Source of the DNA: Ricordea florida
Taxonomy: Eukaryota; Cnidaria; Anthozoa; Corallimorpharia; Ricordeidae
Direction: 5' to 3'
Length of the DNA stretch: 64,000 nt
Assembly: GCA_949710005.1 (NCBI GenBank)
Contig: OX453273.1
Location: forward strand, 36,941,538-37,005,537
The stretch's first letter is position 1. The number at the start of each line of letters is the position of its first letter. A model generated the notes under the pieces. The model had not been told where the DNA came from and searched no databases. It was given only the letters and a program-made list of their open reading frames with translations. Shown here in pieces: positions 5,701 through 53,706 of the stretch. The position numbers and the translations under genes are program-made.

Positions 5701-8700
5701 GCCCATAACAGCCAATCATCTTGATTCTCACCAGATGCTTATCAAGAAAACGTAAAACGCGAGAGAGAGCTAAGACAAGAAATTCAAAGGGAGTTGGACC
5801 AAGTCAAGGGTGAGTGAAGACTGCCATAGGGCAGACTGGGGACTGACATACGTATCTGAGGTAGAATCATACTTGAAGGTTTGAGGGATGCGGCTCACTT
5901 TGCCGTGAAGTTAAGCGAGGCTTCCATACCCTTTCGCTCTCAAGTTAACTGAAATAAGCAAAGTTAACGAGTCGTTTGGCGACAGCACTTTCATTGCCTA
6001 AATCCAGATTTCGAATTCGAAACCGACACATTAGCTATTTATAGTCGATGTTCTTTTGTTCTGTGTGCAAAAATAGCGACGTTCAGCTAATTTGGCTCTA
6101 GACTAAGGGAGAAAATCGGAGCGGGATGGAGAGTTGTACAGTATTCGCTGTTTTTCATTAGCCATATTTGAGTGCCAAACATTTGGCGGCAGAGAAGAAT
6201 AGTGGAATAAGAATAACGGAAATATTTTTTGTTGGAATAATTAAATAATGCCATTTTGTGGGGCGGAGTAACGGAATGACGACTTTCTTTGGAATAGATT
6301 ACATTGTCCCGAAGAAGTAGATTTTTTTTAAGTTCCCTTTTACTGGAATAATGGAACAACGAAAATTTCCTAGCACGAATAATGAAGTGATATGCACCCG
6401 ATTATTCCTCTTCACGCCCCTAGAAAATGTACAGAAATCCTATCTTTGCTTAATATGATTTGGGCAATGAAAACCCTATAAAGTACTTATCGGGAAGCTC
6501 GACGTTACCTCAGTAACTGACTTAGGGCGCGACTCGACAGAAATAATAATAATAATAATAAATGTATTTAGCACTGACGTACGAATTGGGGACACTGTAA
6601 AGCACAAATGAAATCAAAGCAAATCATATTAAATCAAATCAAATCAAATGTTCGTTTTTGTGGAGAGGGGAAAACTGGAGTATGACGCCGAGGTCGGGAA
6701 TCGAACCCGGGCCACATTGGTGGAAAGCGAGAGCTCTCACCACTGCGCCAAATCCTCTCCCCCAAATGAAAGCTGATCAAATTCCTGATACTCCGTGCCT
6801 CGGTGTACAGCGTTTTGCTAACGGGCGGTAAGTGGCATCTCTTTGGTGAAGATGCTGAAGTCGTTATTATGGACACCATGTTGGACTCGGGTCTACGTCA
6901 CTTATTCCCTGGCCCTTTCATTTGCCTGTTTACTGTTATTCTGCATTTAGCTGAACATTCTCATTTGTTCTTTGCAGCTTCCAATGCAGAACTTTTACAG
7001 AATGTACAGAGGAAAGAGTCTGAAATGAAAATTTTGCACGGTATGCGTAAAATATTTTCATGGGTTTTCCGAAATTTCCAAAGCCACAGCATCAGAGAAG
7101 CGTTTCCCTTACAACGTGATGGTGTGTTGCAAGTGAATTAGTTAATTCTGCGTCTAATTAAAGCTGATCTCCTCGCCTGCAAAGAGAAGACGTTTGGAGT
7201 TGCTCTATGAATTTTACTATTAGGGATCATACAGAGGACGCAAAAATAACCATGAATTTTTTCCCTCCCAGCACTCGACCTTGTTAAGATTTTGTCCCAC
7301 TTTCAGAATTTTAATCATCAAGCGACCAAGAACCTTTTTCTTTTGGGGACCGTTCATTTCTTACGAGGGAAGGTGGGGATTGGGGGGGTCATGTGAAATA
7401 TTTTAGCAATACTTTCCAAATCCGAAATTGACTTCTCTTTCTTTTAATGTGGGGGGGGGGAGGGGGAGTCATGCGAAAAAATTGGCAAGCTGAGGGGGAT
7501 CATACCATTATTAAATGGTACTTTCCGAATCACACCAAACCCCCCCGGTCTTCCCCCCCCCCCACCCTCATGAACGGTTCCTTGGGTGTCTTCGTTTCAC
7601 TTTTAATCTTTTTCCAATACTATAACTAAGGAAACCTGATATACAATAATCTAGAACATATTCTGTTTGTTGTCAGTACCGAGTCTGTCGTTTGAAAGGT
7701 CATTTCTAACGGTCAATCGCAGCACGTGCAATATTTAGTACACTGTGATAGATGTCTTTCAGTTCGGCACTGCCACTGCAGGCAAACTCGCAAAAAGCAG
7801 AATTCGAGTTCTCCCAATAGGAGTCGAACCTACTAACTTCTGGTTACAAGTTCAGACGCTCTAACACTGAGCTATAGGAGACTCGCGGGGGAAGTCAATT
7901 TAGTACATTGTTCCAATAAAAATACCAGGTCTGACATCATCTTTGTCATTACTATCATTATCATATGGTGGCAGCGTGGCCGAGTGGTTAGGGCGCTGGA
8001 CTTGTAATCTGGTCACGATTCCGGGTTCAATTCCCGTCCTGACCACTGCCTGGATATGTAGTACGGTGATCGCGAGTCTCAGATCCTTGACCACGCTTGT
8101 AAATAGCCTACTGGTCCGTCTCCCACCAGTTTGAGAATCTTAGAATCAAAGTTTATGTTCTGTTGTAATTAGTATTAGTAGGCGTGGAGCTAACGCGTGG
8201 AAGTACTGTCAATTTATTACATCCACTTTGAAATCACAGGTGATCCCTGCAATTTGATTGGCCCATAGCAGTGTGATTTTTTCACGAATCGCTCTAAGTC
8301 TCGTCTTGTTTTGTATTACTAATTAGGCCTATTAAATTGTGCAATTTCAAAACTGGATGTAATAAAGTGGTTATTGAACTTCGTGTTGTGCAATTTTGGT
8401 CTAAAATCATACTTGTGATTTAAAATTGAACTCGCGCTGCGCGCTCGTGTGATATTTGAATCACGCGTATGATTTCAGATCAAATTGCACTCCACTCAGT
8501 TCAATTAACATTATAAATCGTAATTTTTTTATTGTATTTTTTTTTTGTCTTTTCTAATAACCACTGCGCAAAACATTAAGTCACGTTATGTCATGATGTT
8601 TTCCAGAATAATTTTAATTTAATGTCTTTCTCATTATTCCTAGATTCATATAAACTCCAGATTGACTTGGAAAGAAATCAAAGAGTGGATTTAGAGCACG

Positions 8701-10780
8701 AGATTGCTGAATTAAAAGGTATGACACTTTGTTTATCTCTCGAAGGAAAGTGTTCATAATTATTGAGTGGACAAGCCTTTTACTGACGATGAACTGAGGA
8801 GGAGAATCGTGGAATTTCTTAGTTTTCCCCATGACAATTGCTTTTCAGTCAACGTTACCCGAGTAAAATGGTATGAAGCAGGAGCCCATTACCAGTAGTG
8901 TTCCTATGTGTTGGATAGCGTCCCCGGCACTGTATCAAATAAGGCTAATTTTAGAGCTTGTATTTCCCGCAAAACTCTCTTCAAGACAAGAAGACTAAGA
9001 AACATCAGGGGAATCTTGAGCACTTTTGCTAAAACTAGCCGAACGTAAATTTTCATGTATTCGCATTTATTTCTTCTTCCTCTACGGATATATTACAAAC
9101 TCGACAATGACCGTCTCCCAGTTGGTTTGATAGCTCAGTTGGTTAGAGCTTTGCACCGGTTTTGCATAGTCATGGGTTCGAATCTCCTTGAAGCCTGAAT
9201 TTTCTCAGGGGCTGGTTGGTCGAAGGCCGATTAGCGCTAAGCCAGGGTTAAATTTTAACCCGGGTTTCTTTTCGTCTTATTAAAAAGTATTTTCTCCGAT
9301 AACTTTGTCTTTTTTTGGAGCATACAATCATCAAATTTTATTCAAAAAGAATTATACTGAACGTGCTTTTTTAGCTCTCCTATCTGCATTTTTTTTTCTC
9401 TTTATTACTAAAGACACACAGAAGTAACTTACAATAATACACACGAAAATATACTTCCAACAATTCGTTACAATTCAAATTTCGCACTAACCCTGGGTTA
9501 CCTTAACCCTGCTTCGAACAACCTGGCCCAGAAAGCTCAAGTTGCTGGGGGCTCACATGAAAAATGCTCCACAAGAAAAAAATGAATATTAAATGAACAT
9601 CATGTTTACATTCGATTTAACAGAGTTTGTCTTCTTCACCTGAGAGTAGTCAAGCCTCTAGTGCCATTCCCCTGGCCAAGCCCCAGAGAATTTTGTTTAA
9701 TTAACAATTATTCGCCGAATCACTGAGCCTGAGGCAAATAATTGTTTTAGTATAAATACACAGGTGATTATTTCAAAAACAGAAAAGAAAAACATTTTAC
9801 AACACGAAACCATTTCATTTCATCAAAAGCGCGCGAACGACTGGCAGCCATTTTTGTTCGTCGAGATGATTATCGGCTGATAATCCGCGATAGCGAACCA
9901 ATCAGAGCGCGCGATTTTGTATAATCACCTGAGTATTTATACTAAAAAGAATTATACTGAATGTGCTTTTTAAGCTCTCGTATCTGCATTTAAATTTCGT
10001 TCTAACCCTGGGTTACCTTAACCCTGCTTCGAACAACCCGGCCCAGGTCTCATCTTCGCAACTGCTGAAGTTGCTCACGTAAGTGCGACGATCTTTCACT
10101 TATTAAACCTTCCTTGCGCAATTCACATATCTAGCCAACTCTGAACTGTGCACCTAACCCTCCCCTCCCCCAACCCAACAAGTTATTGCCCCCGCAGGGT
10201 TCCGGCCCAGAGGCCGGAACCCGAGGAGGCACCCTAATGTTCCCCGCGTAAATAAGAAGTATCGTATGGTCGTAGTGTTAGTATGCGAAAATTTTCTCGA
10301 TTTGACGAAAATAGGCGCGCACGGTGGTCCCGGTTAATTTTCAGCATGTGCGCCTGGCAACGAGTCGTCACGATTTCATTCCAAGCTTTCTTATTTCATT
10401 CCAAGCTATAATGTAAACCCATCCTAAACACGATATGTATGAGGATTTCCATTAACCCAAGAAACAAAGTGTGATAATTGACAAAACACAAACACAACAA
10501 GGAATTTGCACTCTCAAACGAAAACTACATTTCAAAGGTTCATAACAAATACATGGACAACCACATGCAGTCTTCATTCAGTTTTTACAAAGTCGGGGGC
10601 AGATTTAGTGACAACTATGACTAGTAGTAAGTTACACCTTCATTTCACATTCATTTCAAACGTTGATGTGTTAATTCATTTCCGCTTTAGTAAGATGTGT
10701 TTATCTTTCTTGAACCTTCTTTTCCAGGCAGATTTGGGATCATTGTCAAGACTCCTCCGATAAAGCAGGAACGGGTATAA
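98..10780 (+). CDS. Ski/Sno/Dachshund-like corepressor with four DHD repeats and a C-terminal coiled coil (spliced)
   Basis: Proposed exons: 98-2768, 3327-3413, 5265-5327, 5735-5809, 6978-7040, 8644-8718, 10728-10780 (stop TAA). Each junction has an AG acceptor and GT donor and every intron is phase 1, so the frame stays open to a terminal stop, giving about 1028 residues from 98 or 1005 from the Met at 167. The first exon carries four repeats resembling the Ski/Sno/Dac homology domain (DHD), with motifs such as CTYITKKDAERLL. The short exons encode a Cys-rich piece and then charged heptad-like helices, as in the Ski/Sno C-terminal coiled coil. The protein ends RFGIIVKTPPIKQERV, which contains a sumoylation-type IKQE. 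By family, Ski/Sno/Dac proteins are nuclear transcriptional corepressors; that role is inferred here. Four DHD copies is unusual. The true start may lie at 167 or in an upstream exon. The 3.4-5.2 kb intron could hide another exon. Confidence 0.72.
3950..4098. mobile_element. Small palindromic MITE
   Basis: 'GAACTATCGG...GATGTTCTTAAAAC' faces 'GTTTTAAGAACAT...CCGATAGTTCC', making a long imperfect hairpin in intron 2 of the Ski-like gene. Confidence 0.6.
4820..5075. mobile_element. MITE family 1, copy with a 37-bp perfect-type palindrome
   Basis: 4820-4893 is an inverted repeat of two 37-nt arms with no loop (centre GTGAAT/ATTCAC) and one or two mismatches. Then comes the family body: TTTTAGTATAAATAC, GTGATNATTTCAAAAA, 'GGCAGCCATTTTGTTCGTCG' and 'CAATCAGAGCGCGCGATTTT'. 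Related copies are at 9702-9946 and 56785-57079. It lies in intron 2 of the Ski-like gene. Confidence 0.8.
5265..8718 (+). CDS. Duplicated coiled-coil exon pairs of the Ski-like gene
   Basis: There are four exons: 63 nt (5265-5327), 75 nt (5735-5809), 63 nt (6978-7040) and 75 nt (8644-8718). The two 63-nt exons encode similar helices (DMLKTLERKDIEMKFLY and ELLQNVQRKESEMKILH). The two 75-nt exons each encode 25 residues (starting DAYQENVKRERELRQ and DSYKLQIDLERNQRV). The pattern is a tandem duplication of an exon pair. Vertebrate Ski is known for C-terminal tandem repeats of about 25 residues, which supports the family call. Confidence 0.72.
5597..5614. repeat. Poly-C tract (18 nt)
   Basis: Uninterrupted C run in intron 3 of the Ski-like gene. 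Confidence 0.95.
6680..6765 (-). mobile_element. tRNA-like SINE head
   Basis: Minus strand: 'TTTGGCGCAGTGGTGAGAGC' (A-box-like), then 'CCCGGGTTCGATTCCCGAC' (B box). It is in intron 5 of the Ski-like gene's neighbourhood (5.8-7.0 kb). A similar head occurs at 36.9 kb. No sign of an intact tRNA acceptor fold. Confidence 0.55.
7745..7888 (-). mobile_element. tRNA-Thr-like SINE (TGT anticodon region)
   Basis: Minus strand: 'CTATAGCTCAGTGTTAGAGC', anticodon loop with TGT, then 'GTAGGTTCGACTCCTATTGG'. Beyond the head lies 'GGCACTGCCACTGCAGGCAA', one unit resembling the 23-bp minisatellite at 51.7-52.2 kb. Confidence 0.6.
7968..8160 (+). mobile_element. tRNA-derived element with near-intact tRNA fold
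   Basis: 7970-8047 shows an acceptor (GGCAG/CTGCC), A box 'TGGCCGAGTGGTTAGGGC', an anticodon stem-loop with TGT, and B box 'CGGGTTCAATTCCCG'. The downstream body suggests a SINE rather than a working tRNA gene. A tRNA-Thr pseudogene is the alternative. Confidence 0.5.
8366..8565. mobile_element. 200-bp MITE
   Basis: Termini AGTGGTTATT and AATAACCACT are exact inverses, and the middle is an imperfect palindrome around 'CTCGCGCTGCGCGCTCG'. It lies just upstream of exon 6 of the Ski-like gene. Confidence 0.65.
9122..9197 (+). mobile_element. tRNA-like SINE head
   Basis: 'TGATAGCTCAGTTGGTTAG' (A box) and 'CATGGGTTCGAATCTCC' (B box) about 30 nt apart, without a clean acceptor stem. A similar head lies at 22.98-23.05 kb, inverted. 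Confidence 0.5.
9214..9522. mobile_element. MITE family 2 (GTTGTTCGAAG termini)
   Basis: It starts GTTGGTCGAAGGCCGATTAG and ends CTTAACCCTGCTTCGAACAAC, with subterminal AACCCGGGTTT/AACCCTGGGTTA. A further right-end piece lies at 9947-10039, and another copy at 58351-58576. Confidence 0.75.
9702..9946. mobile_element. MITE family 1, second copy
   Basis: It has the same body as 4820-5075, bounded by TTTTAGTATAAATACACAGG (about 9743) and its inverse CCTGAGTATTTATACTAAAA (ending about 9946). The left palindrome is shortened to 'CAATTATTCGCC...CAAATAATTG'. It sits inside MITE family 2 sequence, so it inserted later. Confidence 0.8.
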
Positions 10781-18031: not shown

Positions 18032-21000
18032 AAGAAAGTGCTGCCTTTTCAGTGACGTCTATAAATGGTTAGACTTTCTAGTCTTCTCGGATGAGGACGA
18101 TAAACCTTAGGTCCCGTCTCACAACCCCTGTTCGTATAACTTCGTGGGACGTTAAAGAACCCACACACTGTTCGCGAAGAGTGGGGGATGTAGATCCCGG
18201 GATTGTGGTCTGGCCTTTGTGAATTCAAATTCATCTGATGCGCGGGTTGGGTGGGTGGATGAAATCACACATGGACTGATAGCAGCTGCCAGAAGCACCT
18301 TTGCAACCTGACGTCCGATCTCACCCCAGAGTAAGAATTGTAAACCGCCATGAACAAGTAGCGGATATGTGCGGTATAGACCCCATTACCATTATAGTCT
18401 AACTATCACTAACTGACATCAGTCGAGTCAAGTCAAGTCCAGTCACTTGACGTCAGCAGAAGTCATCATCAGAGTGATGTGACTTGACTCTGATGATGAC
18501 TTCTGCTCAGTGTGTCAAAACGTCCGTTAACGTCCTTAACGACAGTTCTTTTCAGGAATACCAACACCCAGACGATTGAACTCAACAAACAACTACCTGC
18601 CTAATAATGTCACTGCTGCTGCACCTGCTAATACTGCTTCAGCTTCTACGACTACTCCCCTGTACATTCATTGTGGTAGTCATTATCCTACTAGCACAGG
18701 TGGCCCAAGTTCCGGATTGCAAAGCGAGTCTTGTATGAAAATGCAACGGTTTTGTTTTCAAGTCGAATGAAGTTAAATCTTTTTTCAATAAAACCGACGT
18801 ACTTTTGTCTCGTTAGCAAAGTACGTTGGAAAAATTATACTTCCTTCAACTTCGTTGTATTTTCATGCAAACCTATTTGGTGCTCGGGTCTCCTCTGGTA
18901 CTACACGGAATTTCAAGACACAGCAACTTACCATGGATAGGGGTTTCAGTTTGAGCTGCGAGGCTTCTGTTTGGTAAAAACTGTTCTCTATTTACAACTG
19001 AAGTTGATCTCGTCTCTGCTGTACTTTCTACATTCTTCCATTCTCTTCGCATCTCGTAATGTCGCGCTGTTTGCCTTGAGTGTAGTGTAGGTTCTTGATT
19101 CGGTAATGTTTGCTTTCCTTTAGTCATGTCCGGTGATACCTTTGGCATGTAGTGTCTGGAGGCGCGCTCAGAGGGACTGCTTGAAGTTTCCCTTGCGTCT
19201 AACGAAATTGAGCGCATTTTAAAACGTCTACTCCCGAGTTTAGTATTATCCGAGTTTAAAGCGGCGTGCAAATGCGGACTAAGGTGTTCGTATTTCGAGC
19301 TGGATGTAAACACAGGTCCAGTTTGCACAGAAGGCGTGAACGGTTGTTTGAAATTCCCTATCCCGTCATTTTCCCATGGTCCTTGAAAACCGTAGTTTTG
19401 GTGCACGTTTCTATTCGAGTGACTGGTACCAAGAGGCTGACTTTGGGAGACCAAACCAGGAAAATTCCAGGAGTGAGCTACAACGCCGCAGACAACAGAA
19501 AAGGTTACTCGAATAACTGTACACAACTAAAAGCTACCAGGCTTTGAAATTCGGCTTTTTATGGGATATGAGGAAAACCTACGCTGGTCTCGTATGTTGT
19601 AATTCTCATTTCTTTAATTCTTTTGTAGTTCAACCCACGAGGTCAAAATATTCATCTGCATTTCGAAATCTTTCAGCGTCCAATGAATTTACACTGAACA
19701 GTTTAGCGACTGCGATGGAGGAAGTATTTGCACCAGAACTGAAGGCTACACACGAACAAGCGACCGAACTCAGTACAAAGATTACAAAATTTTTGAGACT
19801 CTCTGAATAAAGATACACCCCTTTTTCCCTTAAATCTTTATATGCACCATCACAAAGCCTTGGTGATTTTTCAGCTCCCCTCCCTCCCCTCCCTCCCCCT
19901 TCTAACTTTTCAGCATAGTTTTGCATTGGAGGCAACATTAATTGGGGGGGGGGGGGGAACTTCATTGTGCCAGACCATTGATTACTGAGACCTCAAAAAG
20001 CACTTATGGCTAGAAATGCACACCACCCAAAAGGTGTAGTGTCTCAAGTAATTCTGCACCTTGTTGTAGCATATGCATACTTCATGTCCTCATAAAATAA
20101 AATACTTCTAACATTTAGACGATATGCTTAAATTCTGCGTTTCAGAATCATTATATGCATGTATGTATTGAGCATCGTGTCTTAACTCGAAGAATTTTTC
20201 CCAGTAACGAACTTTTTCTAGTCAGTGAGTAGATTTAATGCAACGGAATTTGAACGAAGTCTTATTTGTTTGATTTGAGCTATGAGATGAACAAACAGCT
20301 CCTTTTCCTTCTTAAGTTCCTAACAAATAGGCTACTTAGACATTCTTTGATGCTAAGCTAGTGTAAGATAATGAATATATCTTAAAAACTTATAATTCAC
20401 CGATCCAACGTTTCGATACTTCTAACTAGTGTCTTCTTCAGAGGTGATTAGACAAGGCTATGAAGCTCCTTTTATAGCTACAATGAATGACTTTGCTTGA
20501 TTGCAAAATTATAACCAAGCCAGCCTAGTATCAAACAATGTCTGATTTTCCACCTGGTTGCAATATGCACATTTCTTTTCAATAGGATATATAGTTGTTT
20601 ATCAAGTTTGATCATCCAGGTTTACTCGACTATTAACTACTGAGACTCCTGTGTTCAAATAATGTGCAGTTTTGCTATATCTTTTTTTATAATTTTCAGT
20701 CTTCCCTTACCAGCTTCTCTAAAACTGTCGTAATCCTGCATACCGAGAGGAATCCCAAGAAAGCTTGGATATTTTTCGTCGTACCAAACCAACAGCTCGC
20801 TTCCTTGACCTATTTCCTTAAATGCACGATAGAAGATGTTTCCGCAATACTGAAACGCGAACAAATTCTGTTCACTCATCTGGCGAGCACAACGAATGAA
20901 TCGCATCCAACTTGAGCTTTCTTCATCACTGCCATCAAGATAGTGGCTCAGTGTATTGTCCTTAAAAATCTGGTAAATAAAACAGAATTACCACACACAG

Positions 21001-26495: not shown

Positions 26496-29400
26496 CTCTG
26501 TTGGTCTTAAAGAGGAGAGGTATTATTCGTCTTGTTCAAGGAGACCAGAGTTCAAAACACTTATATGACACATGCATATGCTTAGCAATTCCTTCACATG
26601 GAGTTTTTGAAAAGGTTTTAAGTTAATTAAAGGCTGCCCATGGACACCCACGAGAGGTAAAATTCGGCATTGTTAGCGTGCTCAGTCTAATAAATACTGC
26701 CTGATGAGTGAGGGACTAACTGACTGAGAAACAACCAAAAAGTAGCTAAAACTTACTGACTAACTGCCAATAAAATATCCAAACAAGTGACCAGCTACAT
26801 TGACCACCAGAACAACTAACTGAATAATTCCCTGGCTTGGCCAACAGGGCACTAAACTCCTTTAATGAATGCTGCTGACCCAGTTATCGCACCAAATAAA
26901 CGGACTAAATGACAAAGTGAATGACATAATTTGTTCTGAATCTTTGAACAATTTCTAGTTTTCCCAGTTATGTTTTAATCACAGGGATAAGGGCGCTCAG
27001 CTGTTTGCTTTACTTTGGTGATAATAAAACCGCCATTGATTTATTTCATTTATAAATATAGCGGAGAATACCAGAGTACCAGTCGACCCCATCGTCTGAA
27101 GAAGACCAGTAGTTAGCGGTCGAAAAGTCGCTATCCACATCCAAGTGACTACCTCGTGAGACAAATCGGAAAAACTACATAACCACTGCATCATCCACGA
27201 TGACTAATAACATATTCCATAACAGCAGCAAAATAGTTAGCCAAGGCAGATAGTAAAAATACATTATCACATTGGAGAAAGAGGTATTACGATGAATTAC
27301 GAGCACACATGTACACTGTCTCATATGTCAAAACTGATGTTTACAGCACAAGTTTTATTTAAGAGGTTCTTCTTACTCGGAAATGACAATGGACCCAACA
27401 AGGACGATGACTATGTAGCTTTTGCTGATGCTAAGACTAAGCCGGCATCAATTCATCCTGATTGGCTTTTGCAAGTAAAGATAACCTTCTTTTCCCTGAT
27501 GTGATTTTTATCATGTGCACTACATCGTACGCATTCACTTTTTAAGACAACCTGAAAACTCAGTAAATATCAGTTACTATAATTAAACATGAACCTCGCA
27601 TCCGATATGTCTTGGAAACATTCTACGAATCATTATCTGGTTTAAGACAAGGTTCAACTTAACTAATAATCAGATTAAAACATCATCATTAAGCTAACTG
27701 TTTTAAAACTACTTTAATAATCGCTCTAAACTCTGCCAGGTAATTAAGTTGTGCGGCACTGATATCGCGCCAACGCGTCTGTGCTTGACAATCATTTGCA
27801 ATGAATACTAAATTACAGAGTTTGTTAGATGTAAACAGGTCTTTATAATTAAACAGGAGTTTTAAAGTGATTTCATAACGAACAAATTGTTTCTTAACAT
27901 AGTCTTGGAACTTGATTTGATTTAGTTCATAGTCGCCAATTTTACATATCCTCCATTTCACCTTGTCTACTCAGCGGAGTAAAAGAAGAAATTACAAAGT
28001 TTGCCGTTACAGTACAGAAACTTTAGTAAAATATCTGAAAGTGAATATGTGTGCACCCTGTTTTTATATCAATCGTTTTACAAACCTACACATATGATTA
28101 TCAAAAGGCTTAGAATTTAAAATGGACCACAGTTGAATGTAAACAATACTAGTTGAAGGTCTATTTATACGCAGTTTTCAACAGTTAGTGGAAGCGAAAC
28201 TGCTCAGTAAAGGGATCAATCAAGGTAACCGTTTTGCCACTCTAGCTGGGAACTACAATAATTAGCCTAAGAGCGAAATTATTGTGTCATTTAAGAATAA
28301 ACGTTTTTCATCGATAACTCCGTGATACTATTTTATCTTGAGATCTCTTCTGATGGTACTTTCCCTCTTAAAACAAAACAACATTTGATTTCTTTATTAG
28401 CCGATTTCACGTCCAACCCACGCGTATATAGTCGCCGTAAGCCGAGATTGCTTTATTCCTGATTCTTCGCATGCTAAAGTACAAAACGGAAAATTCCCGT
28501 TTGCTGTCACACGCTTCACAATAGTGCTAAACAAAGGAGGCTATCGAGCCGCGAATATGGCGACAGGGAACAGGAATATTATGGCAAAGAGGGAACCTTT
28601 TATCATTTTTGTAAAAGATCGCCGCGCCTTATAGCCAGGAATTAACTTCGCCTTGTTGACTCATTCCCGGGTAAAGCAAAAGGGAAATGTTGCTGATAGA
28701 AAACAATAACTGGGTCGATAACGCTTCAAAACAAATTCTGGCAGAATCTAAAATCATGTAAAAGTTATGAAGTTCGTATTTTATGCGAAATGAATAAGGG
28801 CATAGAGAAGAAAAATTCGTCTATGCTTTTAAGCCTGCATGATAGCTGAATAAAGCTTTAACCTGTACTTCAAGAAGAAAAAAAACTCGAACATGGAAAA
28901 AAAAATTTTTTAAAAAAAAACTACCTACCCTCTTAGCCACTTTTTTGTTACAGTTCAGGGATTTTTCGCTCCTTGTCTTGCAACTTGTGCATGGGCGAAC
29001 TCAATAACATTTTGTCCTGAATTGTGCGACATAATTCTGTGGACGTAATGCTCATAATAAGAAAATTAAAAGATTCATCCTTACTTGGCAGAAATCCGCT
29101 CAGACGTCTCTTTGTGTGCCACATTGCCGGCGGGCATTGTAAAACGAAAATTCCGCATGCCATTGGGTTTCCCGTGACCCGGCTCCACGACGTGCGATGA
29201 GTATACTTTTTCTCTGTGGTTTGTTTACCATTTCTTTGTTATTGCGCGTATGCAGGAAATTTTTAGCCCATACATCAAAGACTGTCTATTTCTTCAAGTT
29301 GTGTTTCCCCAACAAACGCAATCTAACCAGCTCTCACCAACATAAAATCAGGAATACATGAATACCACTTCATTTTATTACGTGAACAAGCGTATTAGCT

Positions 29401-37609: not shown

Positions 37610-40600
37610 ATGAATTGGATGGGATCCCTGGAATTCCAGCAAATGATTGACAAGTCATCGTCAGCTGACACCCTGACAACTCCACATTCATTCAGAGAGC
37701 GAATTACCCAGCAGGACCTTCGGCATCTATTGTACGACAGAAATCCCGTGCAGGTGGTACACATTGATGAAATGTGTCCTGAAGACAACAGCAGTCGAAC
37801 GGGTAAACCTCTACACCATGTCCAAGTGATAAGTTTTAATCTAAACAGATTTTAAATATATTTACATATATATATAATCCCCTGACGAGTGGGCAACCAC
37901 GAAACAGGCTTGTAGGGATAAACCTGTAGTTTGTTTGTGTGTTCTTTTCTCCTGCAACAACTACTTCGCTCTACGTTCACGTATTGAGCACTGTTTTACG
38001 ATTAATCAACTTTTACACTTTATATATATATATATATATAAAACGTTAGATAAAGCAAGGACGGACAACTTCTGACGATAAAAAAGTTAAAAAGTTAAAA
38101 ATTTAATAGAAAAAACGTTTCGGTCTTAGACCTTCGTTAGTTAGTTTCTTAGACCTTCGTCAGTTTCGGTCTTAGACCTTCGTCAGTAGTACTGTTCAGT
38201 AGCTGTCCAAAGAATGGTCACAATACATGGTTTGATCCACAGATGAAAAACCCAGAACCACACTGTATAGTAAAACAAACCGTACCACAGTACAGTACTG
38301 TTCAGTAGCTTTACAAAGAATGGTCACACTGCATGGTTTAATCCACAGACACAGATGAAAAAGATAGAACCACACTGTATAGTGAAACAAACAGTACAAT
38401 GTAGTACAGTACTGTTCCGTAGCTTTACAAAGAATGGTCACACTGCACGGTTTGATCCACAGATGAAATAGTAAGAACCACACTGCATAATTAAACAAAC
38501 AGTACCACAGTACAGTACTGTTGTGCACCATTGTACAATTGCAAGTCACCAAGTTGCATTTCGGCTAGCAGAACTAGACCCCTTGGTCACTAAAATTAAT
38601 TCATTTTGTTCTTTCCAACAGTGTTCAATGATTACCAGAACAAAGAAATGAAATCTGCGAAGTCAATAACAGAGTCAGAGCTCGAACTCAAAAGAAAGAG
38701 AACGATGACTGCTGTGGAACAGAAAAAGTCAGCGAAAAACCGCTGTCAACGCAGGTACGACATCGAGTCTTTCCCGGATGAAGTTCAGCTGTGTGTATCG
38801 GGAATTCCTGGGGCTGGTTTTGGTGTTTGCGCAAAACGTCATATTCCTGTGGGTACGTGGATTGGTCCATTTGAAGGAAGGCGTGTCTCCCCTGAGCGGG
38901 TGACATCTGACATGGATACGTCATATATGTGGGAGGTGAGAAGCAATGCTTAATGTAGAATCTGGTCTTGAATCGATTCATTATTTCAGTATTAACGGTC
39001 TTGTCATCACCCTGTATAATGCCATTCCCATAAAATGTTTTTTCTTTGGCATCACCAACCACCTCATTCTAATGTTATGGAAATACAAAGGAAAATAATA
39101 CCGCTATAAATTCAACGAAACTTTAAGTGCAATTTATAAGTCATGATATTGTTTTAGAGTTTGAAAACAATAGTTACACGTGTATATTACAGTTAGTGAA
39201 GTTTAATGGAATTGAAACCAGATATAAGTAATATTCTTTGTTTTATACCGAAAAATCAAGTGATCAAGATTGTTTTGAATCATGAAATCTTCTACCCAAA
39301 TATATTAGGCTAGTTATTAATTCGGAGTTGTTTCGCAAGGAAAATTGGCAAACGAAAGGACGCTTGTAACCAGGCCTTCATAATTACCGTTCAGGCTCTT
39401 CCTGGGCTCAGCTTTCCTCGATCATATTTTTACAGACCGATCATCTCACTTTCACAAAAGGAAAAGATATGAATGACAACATTTCATGAGGATGGCTTAA
39501 TCTTTATACTTCTTTTGACAATGTCGATTTTGCAACGGGAAATTCCATCGTGGTATGGTCACCTGTAACAAAGCAAAACTACTGAGTACCAGTCCACACT
39601 AAGAAATTAGAATAAGATCTAAAATTGAAAAACTGAACTTCGCAATGAGAGGAATATTATAGCCTTGGAATATCCGTTTTTATTGCTACTTTATAGTAAT
39701 GACGGCTTTTTCCACCAAATTGTCGCCTGCTCACGCTCGTGTACTTTTCCATCATCAGGAAAACTTGTCTTGCCCTTCGTGCAAAAATGTCTAATGAACT
39801 TTAACCAATTTTTACTCAGATCTTTAGAGACGGTAAACTTCTTTGCTTCCTCGATGGCAGTGATCCGACCACCTCTAGCTGGATGAGATTTATTCGCTGT
39901 GCTCGGTACAAAGGAGAACAGAACCTTTTTGCTTTTCAACACGCTGGAAGCATTTATTATCGCGCGTTCAGGGAGATACGTCGTGGAGCTGAACTACTGG
40001 TATGGTACGACAGTAACTACCAACAACATGTAGGGATACCCGTAGGAGACTGGGAACTTAGCACTGTTCGGTGTTTTTCAGGTAAGAATTCTTATCATCT
40101 TTTCTGTTTTATTACTCGGACTGAGGGGGCTGAAGCATCGAAGATATCGACATTGAAAAGGAGTATTCCGACATTCAAACGAATCTAGGTGAACCATGTT
40201 CACAAAGACAACTCAGAATTAAGAACATCAACGACGTAAGGTTACTGAGTTGATCTAACAACAATTTCTCCTTACTTACCTCTTACTGACCCTAACCCTA
40301 ACCATAGGTAAATCAATAGCTCTAAGTGATGAGATTTACTAATCAGTTCTTGGGTACAGAACAGTGCGAAACCCAGCTTACCTTTATTTTCTCGGGTAAA
40401 TAGAGTCTATTCACGTGACGTCACAGAGGCCATATTGGTGTACAAAAACAACTCTTTTTCCTTCTGCAACAACAACAACAACAACAACAACTTTTATTTC
40501 ACATTTAAGTGGTCTACAATGATTGAAAAATACCTAATCTAAATAAAGAAACAAAAAATGGTGCTTATGCTGTTTTTTAAGGCCAAACCTTAGTGACAGT

Positions 40601-51259: not shown

Positions 51260-53706
51260 GTAAGTCACAATGATGCTTCATTTGGGTTGCTTTTTGTTTA
51301 CGTAGTTGTTTTTGTAGCTTGTTTGTCTTTTTTTTACTAGTTTATATATTGTTTCTATTTACTTGTATTGCTATTTAAGTTTTGCCTTTCCTTGCGGCTT
51401 CACGTATTAACAAAATTGCAAATCAAAAAAGTATCACAAACCATGTGAAAGACTTTTTTCAACACTATGACAGGTAAAGTCAAATCCCAGTTCCCCCAAT
51501 AGGAGTTAAAACTACGATTCTCCCATTACCTGTTCAGAAGATCTACCGCTGAGCTAAAGGAGACTCGCGGGAGCAAGACCATTAAACTAGGTTCATGGGA
51601 TAAACACCCTGCATACTGCTAAGATTTGAATGTCAAAACGAAAGGGCTGTGAAATAATGAAGATGGTAAATTATGTTTAATTGTTTTCTGGCACTGTCAC
51701 AGGCAAACTCTTGGCACTGTCACAGGCAAACTCTTGTCACTGTCACGGTCAAACTCTTGGCACTGTCACAGGCAAACTCTTGGCACTGTCACGGGCAAAT
51801 TCTTGGCACTGTCACAGGCAAACTCTTGGCACTGTCACGGTCAAACTCTTGGCACTGTCACAGGCAAACTCTTGGCACTGTCACAAGCAAACTCTTAGCA
51901 CTGTCACGGTCAAACTCTTGGCACTGTCACAGGCAAACTCTTGGCACTGTCACGGTCAAACTATTGGCACTGTCAAAGGCAAACTCTTGGCCCTGTCATA
52001 GGCAAACTCTTGGCACTGTCACAGGCAAACGCTTGGCACTGTCACAGGCAAACTCTTGGCACTGTCACGGTCAAACTCTTGGCACTGTCACAAGCAAACT
52101 CTTGGCACTGTCACGGTAAAACTCTTGGCACTGTCACAGGCAAACTCTTGGCACTGTCACTGGCAAACTCTTGGCACTGTCACGGTCAAACTCTAGGCAC
52201 CGTCAAAGGCAAACTGGGAAAAAACCTAAACCGTGTTCTCCCAGTAGGCTTGTCGAACCTACGACCTTCCGTTTACTGCTTCACAAACTCCATAGCAAAA
52301 AAGTCAGGAGGAGTGTATTATTTACGATATGGAATTGAGAAAGGAGCTAACAATGTTAATTCTGTTTTGTTTCTATCAGTCTGCAGAATCTGTAACAAGT
52401 TGTACGCAGTCAGCTGCCCAGTTCATCCGTCCTACCTTGCGCAGCCGATGGCGCAAGCCGAGGAGGACTGGTGCAGCTATGCCATCAAGTCGTTTCCAGA
52501 TGTTGTTCAATTGTGCAAGTCAAGTATTCCTGGCGAAAAGTATGGAGTCGCGGCAAAACAGCATATACCCGTGGGAACGTGGATCGGTCCGTATGAGGGC
52601 AAAAGAGTGGCACCAGACGCTCTTGATCCGAACATTGATTCCTCTTACTTATGGGAGGTAGGAATGTGGATTCTACTACTAGCATTACCAAAGACAAAGT
52701 TGCCTGCTGGAAAAACAAATTTTTCATTTAATATTTGAATATCAAAAAAGCACCACATGAAAGAATGTCCCGCTTTTCTGAGAACGGTAACGCTGTATAG
52801 TTTTATACACAGATGAAATAGTTAGAGGCATTTTTGGTGAGCTAGATAAACAGTACCACGGCACAATTCAGTTCAGTAGCTTTCCAGAGAGTGGTCACAC
52901 TGCACTTTGATCTACAAATGAAAAAGCTTAAGTTAGGACAACACTGCAAAGTAAAACAAATAGCACTATAGAAAGGCTTTGTTCAGTAGCTTCTCTGTGG
53001 TTTTATCCAAAGATGGAAAGTTAGCACCACAATGTATAGTTAAATGAACATTACCACAGTACCGCACTGTTCATGTTCATGATCAGCAGCTTCTTAGTAA
53101 GTAAGACAGCTTAGTGCATGGTTTTATCATAGTTGGTAGAGGGGACTATGATAAAAAAATGATAAAACATGAAGCTGAAATATTAGAATCGCGTTGTACT
53201 GTGTCGTACAATAAACAGCATTACAGTGCAATGGGTGGTCCGTATCGGAGAGGTGATACACATCCTGTGACTACGATTTTCACTATGAAAACAAAAAACA
53301 CTCTTAAGTGCAACTGCAGTTTCTTTTACGATAAACTGTCCACCAAGGCATCTAATTTATTCATGTTTTTCTTTGCAGATCTACTCAGATGGCAAACTCT
53401 TGTACTATTTAGACGCTACAGACGAGAACGTGTCAAGCTGGATGAGATTTATTCGCTGTGCTCGCCACAGAAGCGAACAAAACCTGTTTGCCTTCCAGTA
53501 TTGTGGGAACATATATTACCGAGCCTTTAGAGATATCCCGATAGGCACTGAGCTACTGGTGTGGTACGAGGACATGTACCCACAATACTTTGGGATTCCA
53601 ATAGGAATACACGATTTGAACTCTATGGGTGAGTATTTCAACAATGATCAATATATACCTATCCCTAAGTTTCAAATAAATAAATAAACAAGTAATAATG
53701 ATAATA

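Follow-up and report, generated by a model that had tools for sequence, protein, structure and literature searches.

The window analysed here, a stretch of 64,000 nucleotides of the Ricordea florida genome, contains part of a gene in which a GT...AG intron of 819 nt (called intron 1 in an earlier sequence-only reading of this DNA) separates two exons that join in frame, with the phase kept across the intron (Table 1). The later exons encode the PR/SET domain of a PRDM protein, and the joined 243-aa product has 21 database matches, those with a name being to PRDM6-like or unnamed anthozoan proteins. The exon before the intron aligns weakly with the N-termini of anthozoan PRDM6-like proteins, i.e., with 3 invariant columns in 6 sequences over 64 residues. 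It is preceded by CAG and is therefore perhaps not the first exon of the gene. The PR/SET domain, together with a homologous, albeit weakly matching, N-terminus across the intron, identifies the host at the sequence level as a PRDM6-like gene. Elsewhere in the window, a long short-repeat array, without stops in any of the three forward reading frames, lies at 51650-52400 upstream of another PRDM-like exon, and three tRNA matches above the Rfam cut-off, one of them above 50 bits, lie within 7809-9196.

Table 1. Features of the PRDM6-like intron and its insertion, in window coordinates (PLE, Penelope-like element)
Feature	Position	Strand	Remarks
Exon before the intron, PRDM6-like gene	37610..37802	+	Taken from the frame's first ATG; start unproven, may be an inner exon
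Intron, PRDM6-like gene	37803..38621	+	Donor GT at 37803, acceptor AG ending at 38621
TA-rich left flank	37850..37876	.	Target
Minimal type I hammerhead motif	37877..37919	+	Stem I 5 bp; stem II 4 bp, GCAA loop; stem III 3 bp, GGCU loop; GUA before the cut
Solo PLE leader copy	37877..38024	+	Runs from the zone where transcription is inferred to start as far as the second common 3′ end site; ~148 bp
Self-complementary stem III strand ACAGGCUUGU	37904..37913	+	10 bp with two G-U in the dimer
Expected cleavage site	between A37914 and G37915	+	Predicted from hammerhead numbering
(TA)n right flank	38021..38040	.	Overlaps the end of the leader copy
Neighbouring repeat, hammerhead-like CTGACGAAGGTCTAAGACCGAAAC	38040..38187	-	Opposite orientation
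Next exon, PRDM6-like gene	38622..38935	+	Start of the PR/SET domain

Core, pairing and recognition of the hammerhead motif

The motif in the intron has the CUGANGA ... GAAA ... UH core of a type I hammerhead, with stems I, II, and III and with its open ends in stem I. The two strands of stem I, AUCCC (37877-37881) and GGGAU (37915-37919), enclose the CUGACGA box (37882-37888), stem II with its loop, GUGG-GCAA-CCAC (37889-37900), GAA (37901-37903), stem III with its loop, ACA-GGCU-UGU (37904-37913), and the A at 37914, after which hammerhead numbering places the cut. The sequence-only reading had described a hammerhead with all its core elements on the sense strand of a PRDM-gene intron, 74 nt after the donor; the elements are all present where it had put them, the distance is right, and the placement holds, the gene being PRDM6-like. 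A search with the 26-base core, allowing up to three mismatches, returned one match in the window (vs. 0.00 expected in shuffles), i.e., the motif has no partner there. A looser pattern, CTGANGA..GAAACA..TGTA, returned 1618 matches (839 + 779) throughout the 538-Mb genome vs. 49 (25 + 24) for the reversed control. Further hammerhead-like cores of the form CTGAAGA...CGAAA, perhaps vestiges of other PLE families, are found in the window at 20411-20441 (minus strand) and 27096-27125 (plus strand).

Infernal with the Rfam hammerhead models had been suggested as a check of the motif; Rfam reported no hammerhead over the whole window at curated cut-offs, and none up to E = 10 over the 601 nt around the motif. 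However, this test appears too strict for the variant, because sibling copies of the motif (L046 and L001) and members of a second family (L083 and L084) were also missed, whereas canonical hammerheads of the same genome do get Rfam matches, up to 54 bits. The miss by the covariance model is the reason why the motif was filed as a minimal variant rather than as RF00163, for which there are six matches above the cut-off in this genome (L085 to L090, all canonical type I hammerheads and perhaps retrozymes). The window motif shares the type I core and the self-complementary stem III with the canonical hammerheads of coral retrozymes and RF00163, but it has GUA instead of GUC before the cut, a 4-nt loop II instead of the 6-nt loop present in most of them, and a 10-nt instead of an 8-nt stem III strand; the canonical ones are, in addition, found by Rfam. 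With a continuous stem I of 5-6 bp and GCAA as loop II, the canonical contact between stem I and loop II is not evident, on a reading in 2D only.

The silence of Rfam on the motif would suit a chance match to the hammerhead pattern without ribozyme ancestry. However, the genome-wide enrichment over the reversed control (1618 vs. 49) argues against such a match, as does the pairing of stem I, which was left out of the search pattern (the three closing pairs of stem III were demanded by it). Positions 1 to 5 of stem I pair in 101, 100, 96, 91, and 92, respectively, of 103 distinct copies, although these copies are related. A second hammerhead family retrieved with the same pattern offers a stronger argument than pairing among related copies, since it has a different stem II and an unrelated stem I (GTTTAA/TTAAAC) that pairs equally well. 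The stem I strands of the first and the second family both pair at 5/5 positions in a count by script, whereas mixed strands average 2.3/5, in line with compensatory change. Three canonical representatives also pair 5/5 in stem I, having been found by a model that rewards pairing, and L008 and L090 have 4/5 stem I pairs. The second family (L048, L083, and L084) has the same GAAACAGGCTTGTA, and its stem II is 10 bp long in two of the three copies. By comparative sequence analysis, the window motif is thus confirmed as a real and complete minimal type I hammerhead, and its origin by chance can be regarded as practically negligible.

The repeat in the intron and its carrier element

Over 37877-38024, the window copy differs from the leader reference by 2 mismatches and 1 inserted base, one of the mismatches being the C of the CTGACGA subfamily, to which the window copy belongs. 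Numerous other copies share 97-99% identity with the window copy over about 165 nt. The view that the hammerhead belongs to the PRDM gene is therefore unsupported, the motif being part of a PLE leader copy in a TA run. When the segment 37876-38330 was used as query, 86 matching pieces were obtained from the best 40 of 3741 candidates. The leader and the opposite-facing neighbouring repeat are joined identically at at least six other places (query 2 or 3 to 266-268, 94-97% identity). The minus strand of this neighbouring repeat contains three 25-nt repeats of the hammerhead-like CTGACGAAGGTCTAAGACCGAAAC, 23 nt apart. A search of a phage collection gave no match, which is not informative.

The leader unit common to the copies consists of the hammerhead, then the leader, and then (TA)n. 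On the upstream side, some copies reach into a 3′ UTR and an ORF end; on the downstream side, some continue into the beginning of that ORF. P0001, a database protein of 706 aa, matches an open part of this ORF with 98% identity and a query coverage of 99%, and its search against the genome gave 67 matches from the best 63 of 2005 candidates. Four genome copies span residues 1 or 2 to 706 of P0001 free of stops at 99%, with ACG where ATG is expected in the L094 copy. A CUGA lies 79 nt past the stop in all four full or nearly full ORF copies (with a changed loop II in L095), while upstream of the ORF the motif is intact in two of the four (L094 and L096), changed at a stem III base in one (L092), and lacking in one (L098). 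In L094, a single ORF is preceded by two complete hammerheads, 74 nt apart. The order in L096, i.e., ORF end, 3′ UTR, hammerhead, leader, and ORF start, represents a head-to-tail join, and in L046 two motifs are separated by 2427 bp. The 65 sampled copies include 9 pairs arranged head to head and 8 pairs of neighbours on the same strand, with spacings that vary from 132 to 2427. Head-to-head pairs together with the head-to-tail join of L096 constitute the terminal-repeat arrangement of PLEs.

The AlphaFold model of P0001 (mean pLDDT of 84.4 for the best of five models, 77 to 64 for the others) was compared with the PDB using Foldseek. The best match was telomerase TERT (3du5, E = 1.8e-9), with low TM values of 0.31/0.36; the next matches were to other reverse transcriptases and polymerases. 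By sequence, P0001 gave no RT and no GIY-YIG match in Pfam and no match to PDB sequences; RVT_1 was reached in Pfam by the relative P0072 only, below the cut-off. In the C-terminal part, Y587, Y602, G604, R613, and H617 are invariant in 37 sequences and occupy positions of the GIY-YIG type (Y, YxG, R, H). The best fold match of this domain is a weak one to T4 EndoII, a GIY-YIG enzyme (E = 0.22, probability 0.72), with none at E = 0.001. Named relatives of P0001 among the best 120 of 3217 come from Oculina patagonica, Nematostella vectensis, and the fish Entelurus aequoreus. As modelled, the ORF product has the fold expected of a telomerase-related reverse transcriptase, and the TERT-like fold together with terminal repeats in both orientations led us to file the element as a PLE.

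A rather different identity for the repeat would be a non-autonomous retrozyme, i.e., hammerhead repeats in short tandem arrays, mobile as small circular RNAs. Corals do have such retrozymes according to the accessible text of PMC7229834, and the six RF00163 matches show that canonical motifs are present in this genome. However, the same leader flanks an RT-like ORF, and the 65 sampled copies, unequally spaced as given above, do not form regular short tandems. The short regular tandem repeats without an ORF that define metazoan retrozymes were thus not found among the copies of this element examined, and a retrozyme identity, which is very improbable, was rejected. In the same accessible text, over 6000 type I motifs, most of them minimal, are reported for Acropora millepora, with 1508 canonical ones and the others PLE/Terminon-like.

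Copy ends and the inferred transcription start

The ends of the PLE copies were determined for 64 copies from 40 loci in the first part of one contig (C1); presence of the motif was the criterion for choosing these loci, so that whole motifs are favoured. Of these copies, 50 begin 0-8 nt before CUGA, including 24 without an inverted partner, 12 begin at least 74 nt upstream, and 2 begin between. The commonest 5′ end lies 7 nt before CUGA (29/64), but the exact start base is blurred: ATATCCC lacking the upstream CC is read in 27 of the sampled copies. In 18 of these 27 copies, this sequence is preceded by a G, mostly within the head-to-head palindrome GGGGATATCCCC, in which arms that end at ATCCC would look alike; 6 are in TA runs and 3 are other cases. 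A zone is therefore given here rather than an exact base at -7. BLAST at the same loci gave 88 pieces, 53 of which start in -12 to 0 and 19 further upstream, the other starts lying inside the motif (8), near the cut site (2), in the leader (4), and beyond it (2). Up to 4 of the 88 starts are near the cut, since two of the 8 pieces starting inside the motif, both in L077, count as cut-site ends genome-wide. The 3′ ends of the 88 pieces fall at +79/80 in 34 cases and at +139 to +141 in 41 cases, and solo copies have two lengths, about 86 and 147 nt.

Counts free of this choice of motif-holding loci were obtained genome-wide. The pattern for an uncut start, six A/T followed by ATCCCCTGAYGAGTGGGCA, occurs 171 times, whereas the pattern for a start at the cut site, six A/T followed by GGGATAAACCTGTAGTTTG, occurs 3 times, including two occurrences in one locus at a distance of 146 nt. 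The fixed parts of the two patterns fit 48 and 43, respectively, of the 64 sampled copies, suggesting that they have similar reach. The rarity of cut-site ends (3 vs. 171) suggests that mostly uncut RNA was inserted. All four ORF copies retain the downstream motif whole in the copied part.

Promoter-like motifs accompany the common 5′ end. Among 26 distinct copies that reach upstream, 21 have a TATAWA starting at -31 relative to the A that precedes CUGA by 7 nt, and in 25 the same A stands in YYANWYY, an initiator match; both motifs occurred at these fixed places in 8 of 20,000 shuffles of one upstream sequence. From the TATA box and the initiator match at the common 5′ end, we infer a start of transcription at this position or a few nt away, probably at or near this A, which would put the ribozyme at the 5′ end of the element RNA. 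Alternatively, the common 5′ ends could mark a stop of the reverse transcriptase, or an inverted join, near the folded ribozyme. They do coincide with the outer edge of stem I, and many of them are in the palindrome GGGGATATCCCC. However, an enzyme reaching that edge would already have passed through the whole motif, a TATA box and an initiator match are found at the usual distance, and the 24 copies without an inverted partner end there too, all of which make a stop or a join rather unlikely as the source of these ends compared with a transcription start.

Possible cleavage, insertion and the probable fate of the intron copy

The observations are best accommodated, with a probability that we put at roughly 85%, if the motif is the hammerhead of a young PLE, the transcription of which starts a few nt before CUGA and the RNA of which is mostly inserted uncut, the copy in the intron being a passenger. 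The terminal repeat of the PLE would provide a TATA/initiator-like promoter with a start a few nt, probably 7, before CUGA, and the hammerhead would occupy about +2 to +45 of the element RNA. The element enzyme would begin reverse transcription at one of two internal leader sites and copy to the RNA 5′ end, so that uncut RNA would yield a solo leader with the whole hammerhead in AT-rich DNA, and the two internal start sites would yield two lengths of solo copies. The window copy would be one such insertion, landed in the PRDM6-like intron. A transcript running through the ORF and the second repeat would have two motifs, which could pair as a double hammerhead and cut at both sites. Such a double cut would release an uncapped, perhaps circular, ORF RNA, which would mostly not be the inserted form.

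In folding predictions, two copies of the window motif reach their lowest energy as a double hammerhead, at -34.1 kcal/mol vs. -13.8 kcal/mol per monomer ensemble, and a double hammerhead is also the dimer minimum for a sibling variant, for the second family, and for one canonical motif, but not for the other canonical motif. The stem III strand ACAGGCUUGU, or a variant of it, is self-complementary in 100 of 103 copies; given the closing pairs, a 4-nt loop would by arithmetic self-pair by chance in about 14% of cases, which makes self-complementarity by itself a weak argument.

It is possible, if somewhat doubtful, that the PLE hammerhead serves as a 5′-terminal switch that removes the cap, with the cut RNA going to a use other than transposition while mostly uncut RNA is reverse transcribed. 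If this is true, whether cleavage and insertion are mutually exclusive can be read from the genome as a count, namely 171 uncut vs. 3 cut 5′ ends in AT-rich DNA. As a sequence-based count, 171:3 agrees with what the accessible text of PMC11167929 reports for PAc, the Poseidon element of Anolis carolinensis, i.e., that ribozyme mutants of PAc still insert, that the PAc ribozyme cut only with protein present, and that uncut RNA was inferred in vitro to be the inserted template. The count does not fit the opposite view, expressed in the available part of PMC6431247, that hammerhead cleavage preprocesses RNA templates. The role of minimal PLE hammerheads is called unknown in the available part of PMC7761336. 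The copy-end count bears on this role in that, over many insertions, the templates would have been mostly uncut, and the motif's location at the inferred 5′ terminus of the element RNA opens the way to a specific test.

Several aspects of the Ricordea element have counterparts in known systems. It resembles the minimal PLE hammerheads of Cervera and De la Pena (2014), as also covered in the accessible text of PMC7229834, in being type I with a tiny stem III and in its location in PLE terminal repeats; those hammerheads lack the canonical tertiary contact, which is not evident in the Ricordea motif either. Unlike those, as far as these sources describe them, the Ricordea motif begins just after the inferred transcription start, with about 151 nt from the cut to the start codon and a second copy 79 nt after the stop. 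With PAc, in the portion of PMC11167929 available, it shares a hammerhead near the junction of terminal repeat and ORF, an AT-rich target, two internal RT start sites (adjacent to each other in PAc), and uncut RNA as the insertion substrate. However, the ORF of PAc starts at stem II, with the cut 26 bp inside the ORF and RT starting inside the ORF, whereas in the Ricordea element the cut and both common 3′ end sites are in the leader before the ORF. The Penelope elements of Adineta vaga, in the available text of PMC3846280, likewise have direct and inverted terminal repeats, head-to-head palindromes, solo repeats, and TATA- and Inr-like motifs in the repeat, but no hammerhead is described for them there. 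Minimal PLE hammerheads in corals and the inverted repeats and palindromes of Penelope are thus already known from the accessible parts of PMC7229834 and PMC3846280. The titles and abstracts found on the arrangement, with the key paper of 2014 outside this set, mention no hammerhead at a PLE transcription start and no count of the 171:3 type, which is no proof of novelty for either.

For the intron itself, the sequence-only reading had suggested that the hammerhead, if active in the pre-mRNA, would cut the intron near its 5′ end and could affect splicing or release a stable intron fragment. A ribozyme active in the PRDM pre-mRNA would cut near the donor and thereby reduce or time splicing. Such activity would be in keeping with the complete core on the sense strand, 74 nt from the donor, with the conserved intronic hammerheads in amniotes cited in the accessible part of PMC7761336, and with a remark in the available text of PMC11167929 that a PLE hammerhead had previously been seen to cleave itself at 3-25 mM Mg. 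However, the motif is part of a recent repeat copy, it has a 3-bp stem III besides a stem I/loop II contact that is not evident, and the Anolis PLE hammerhead was inactive in vitro without the PLE protein, according to the same portion of PMC11167929. The motif is also single, while its stem III strand suits pairing as a double hammerhead, and with no partner in the window little cutting of the intron would be expected.

Folding energies of the monomer point in the same direction, but they are no reliable judge. The hammerhead state lies 3.6, 5.0, 8.7, 5.7, and 5.8 kcal/mol above the ensemble in 43, 65, 121, 238, and 819 nt, respectively, the last value being that in the intron, whereas the corresponding values are less favourable for two canonical motifs of this genome (6.3 and 7.4 kcal/mol). 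Since canonical motifs look worse by this measure, folding energy was dropped as evidence on activity. An active intronic ribozyme is nevertheless improbable, and efficient cutting in the PRDM pre-mRNA seems unlikely. The motif in the intron is most likely a passenger rather than a regulator of the gene. What stands of the sequence-only reading is a minimal type I hammerhead with all its elements, lying in sense orientation within a PRDM6-like intron, whereas its ownership by the gene and its action on the intron are not supported, and for the PRDM gene itself this is an ordinary finding. The same intron also contains, at 38183-38522, three direct repeats about 110 bp apart.
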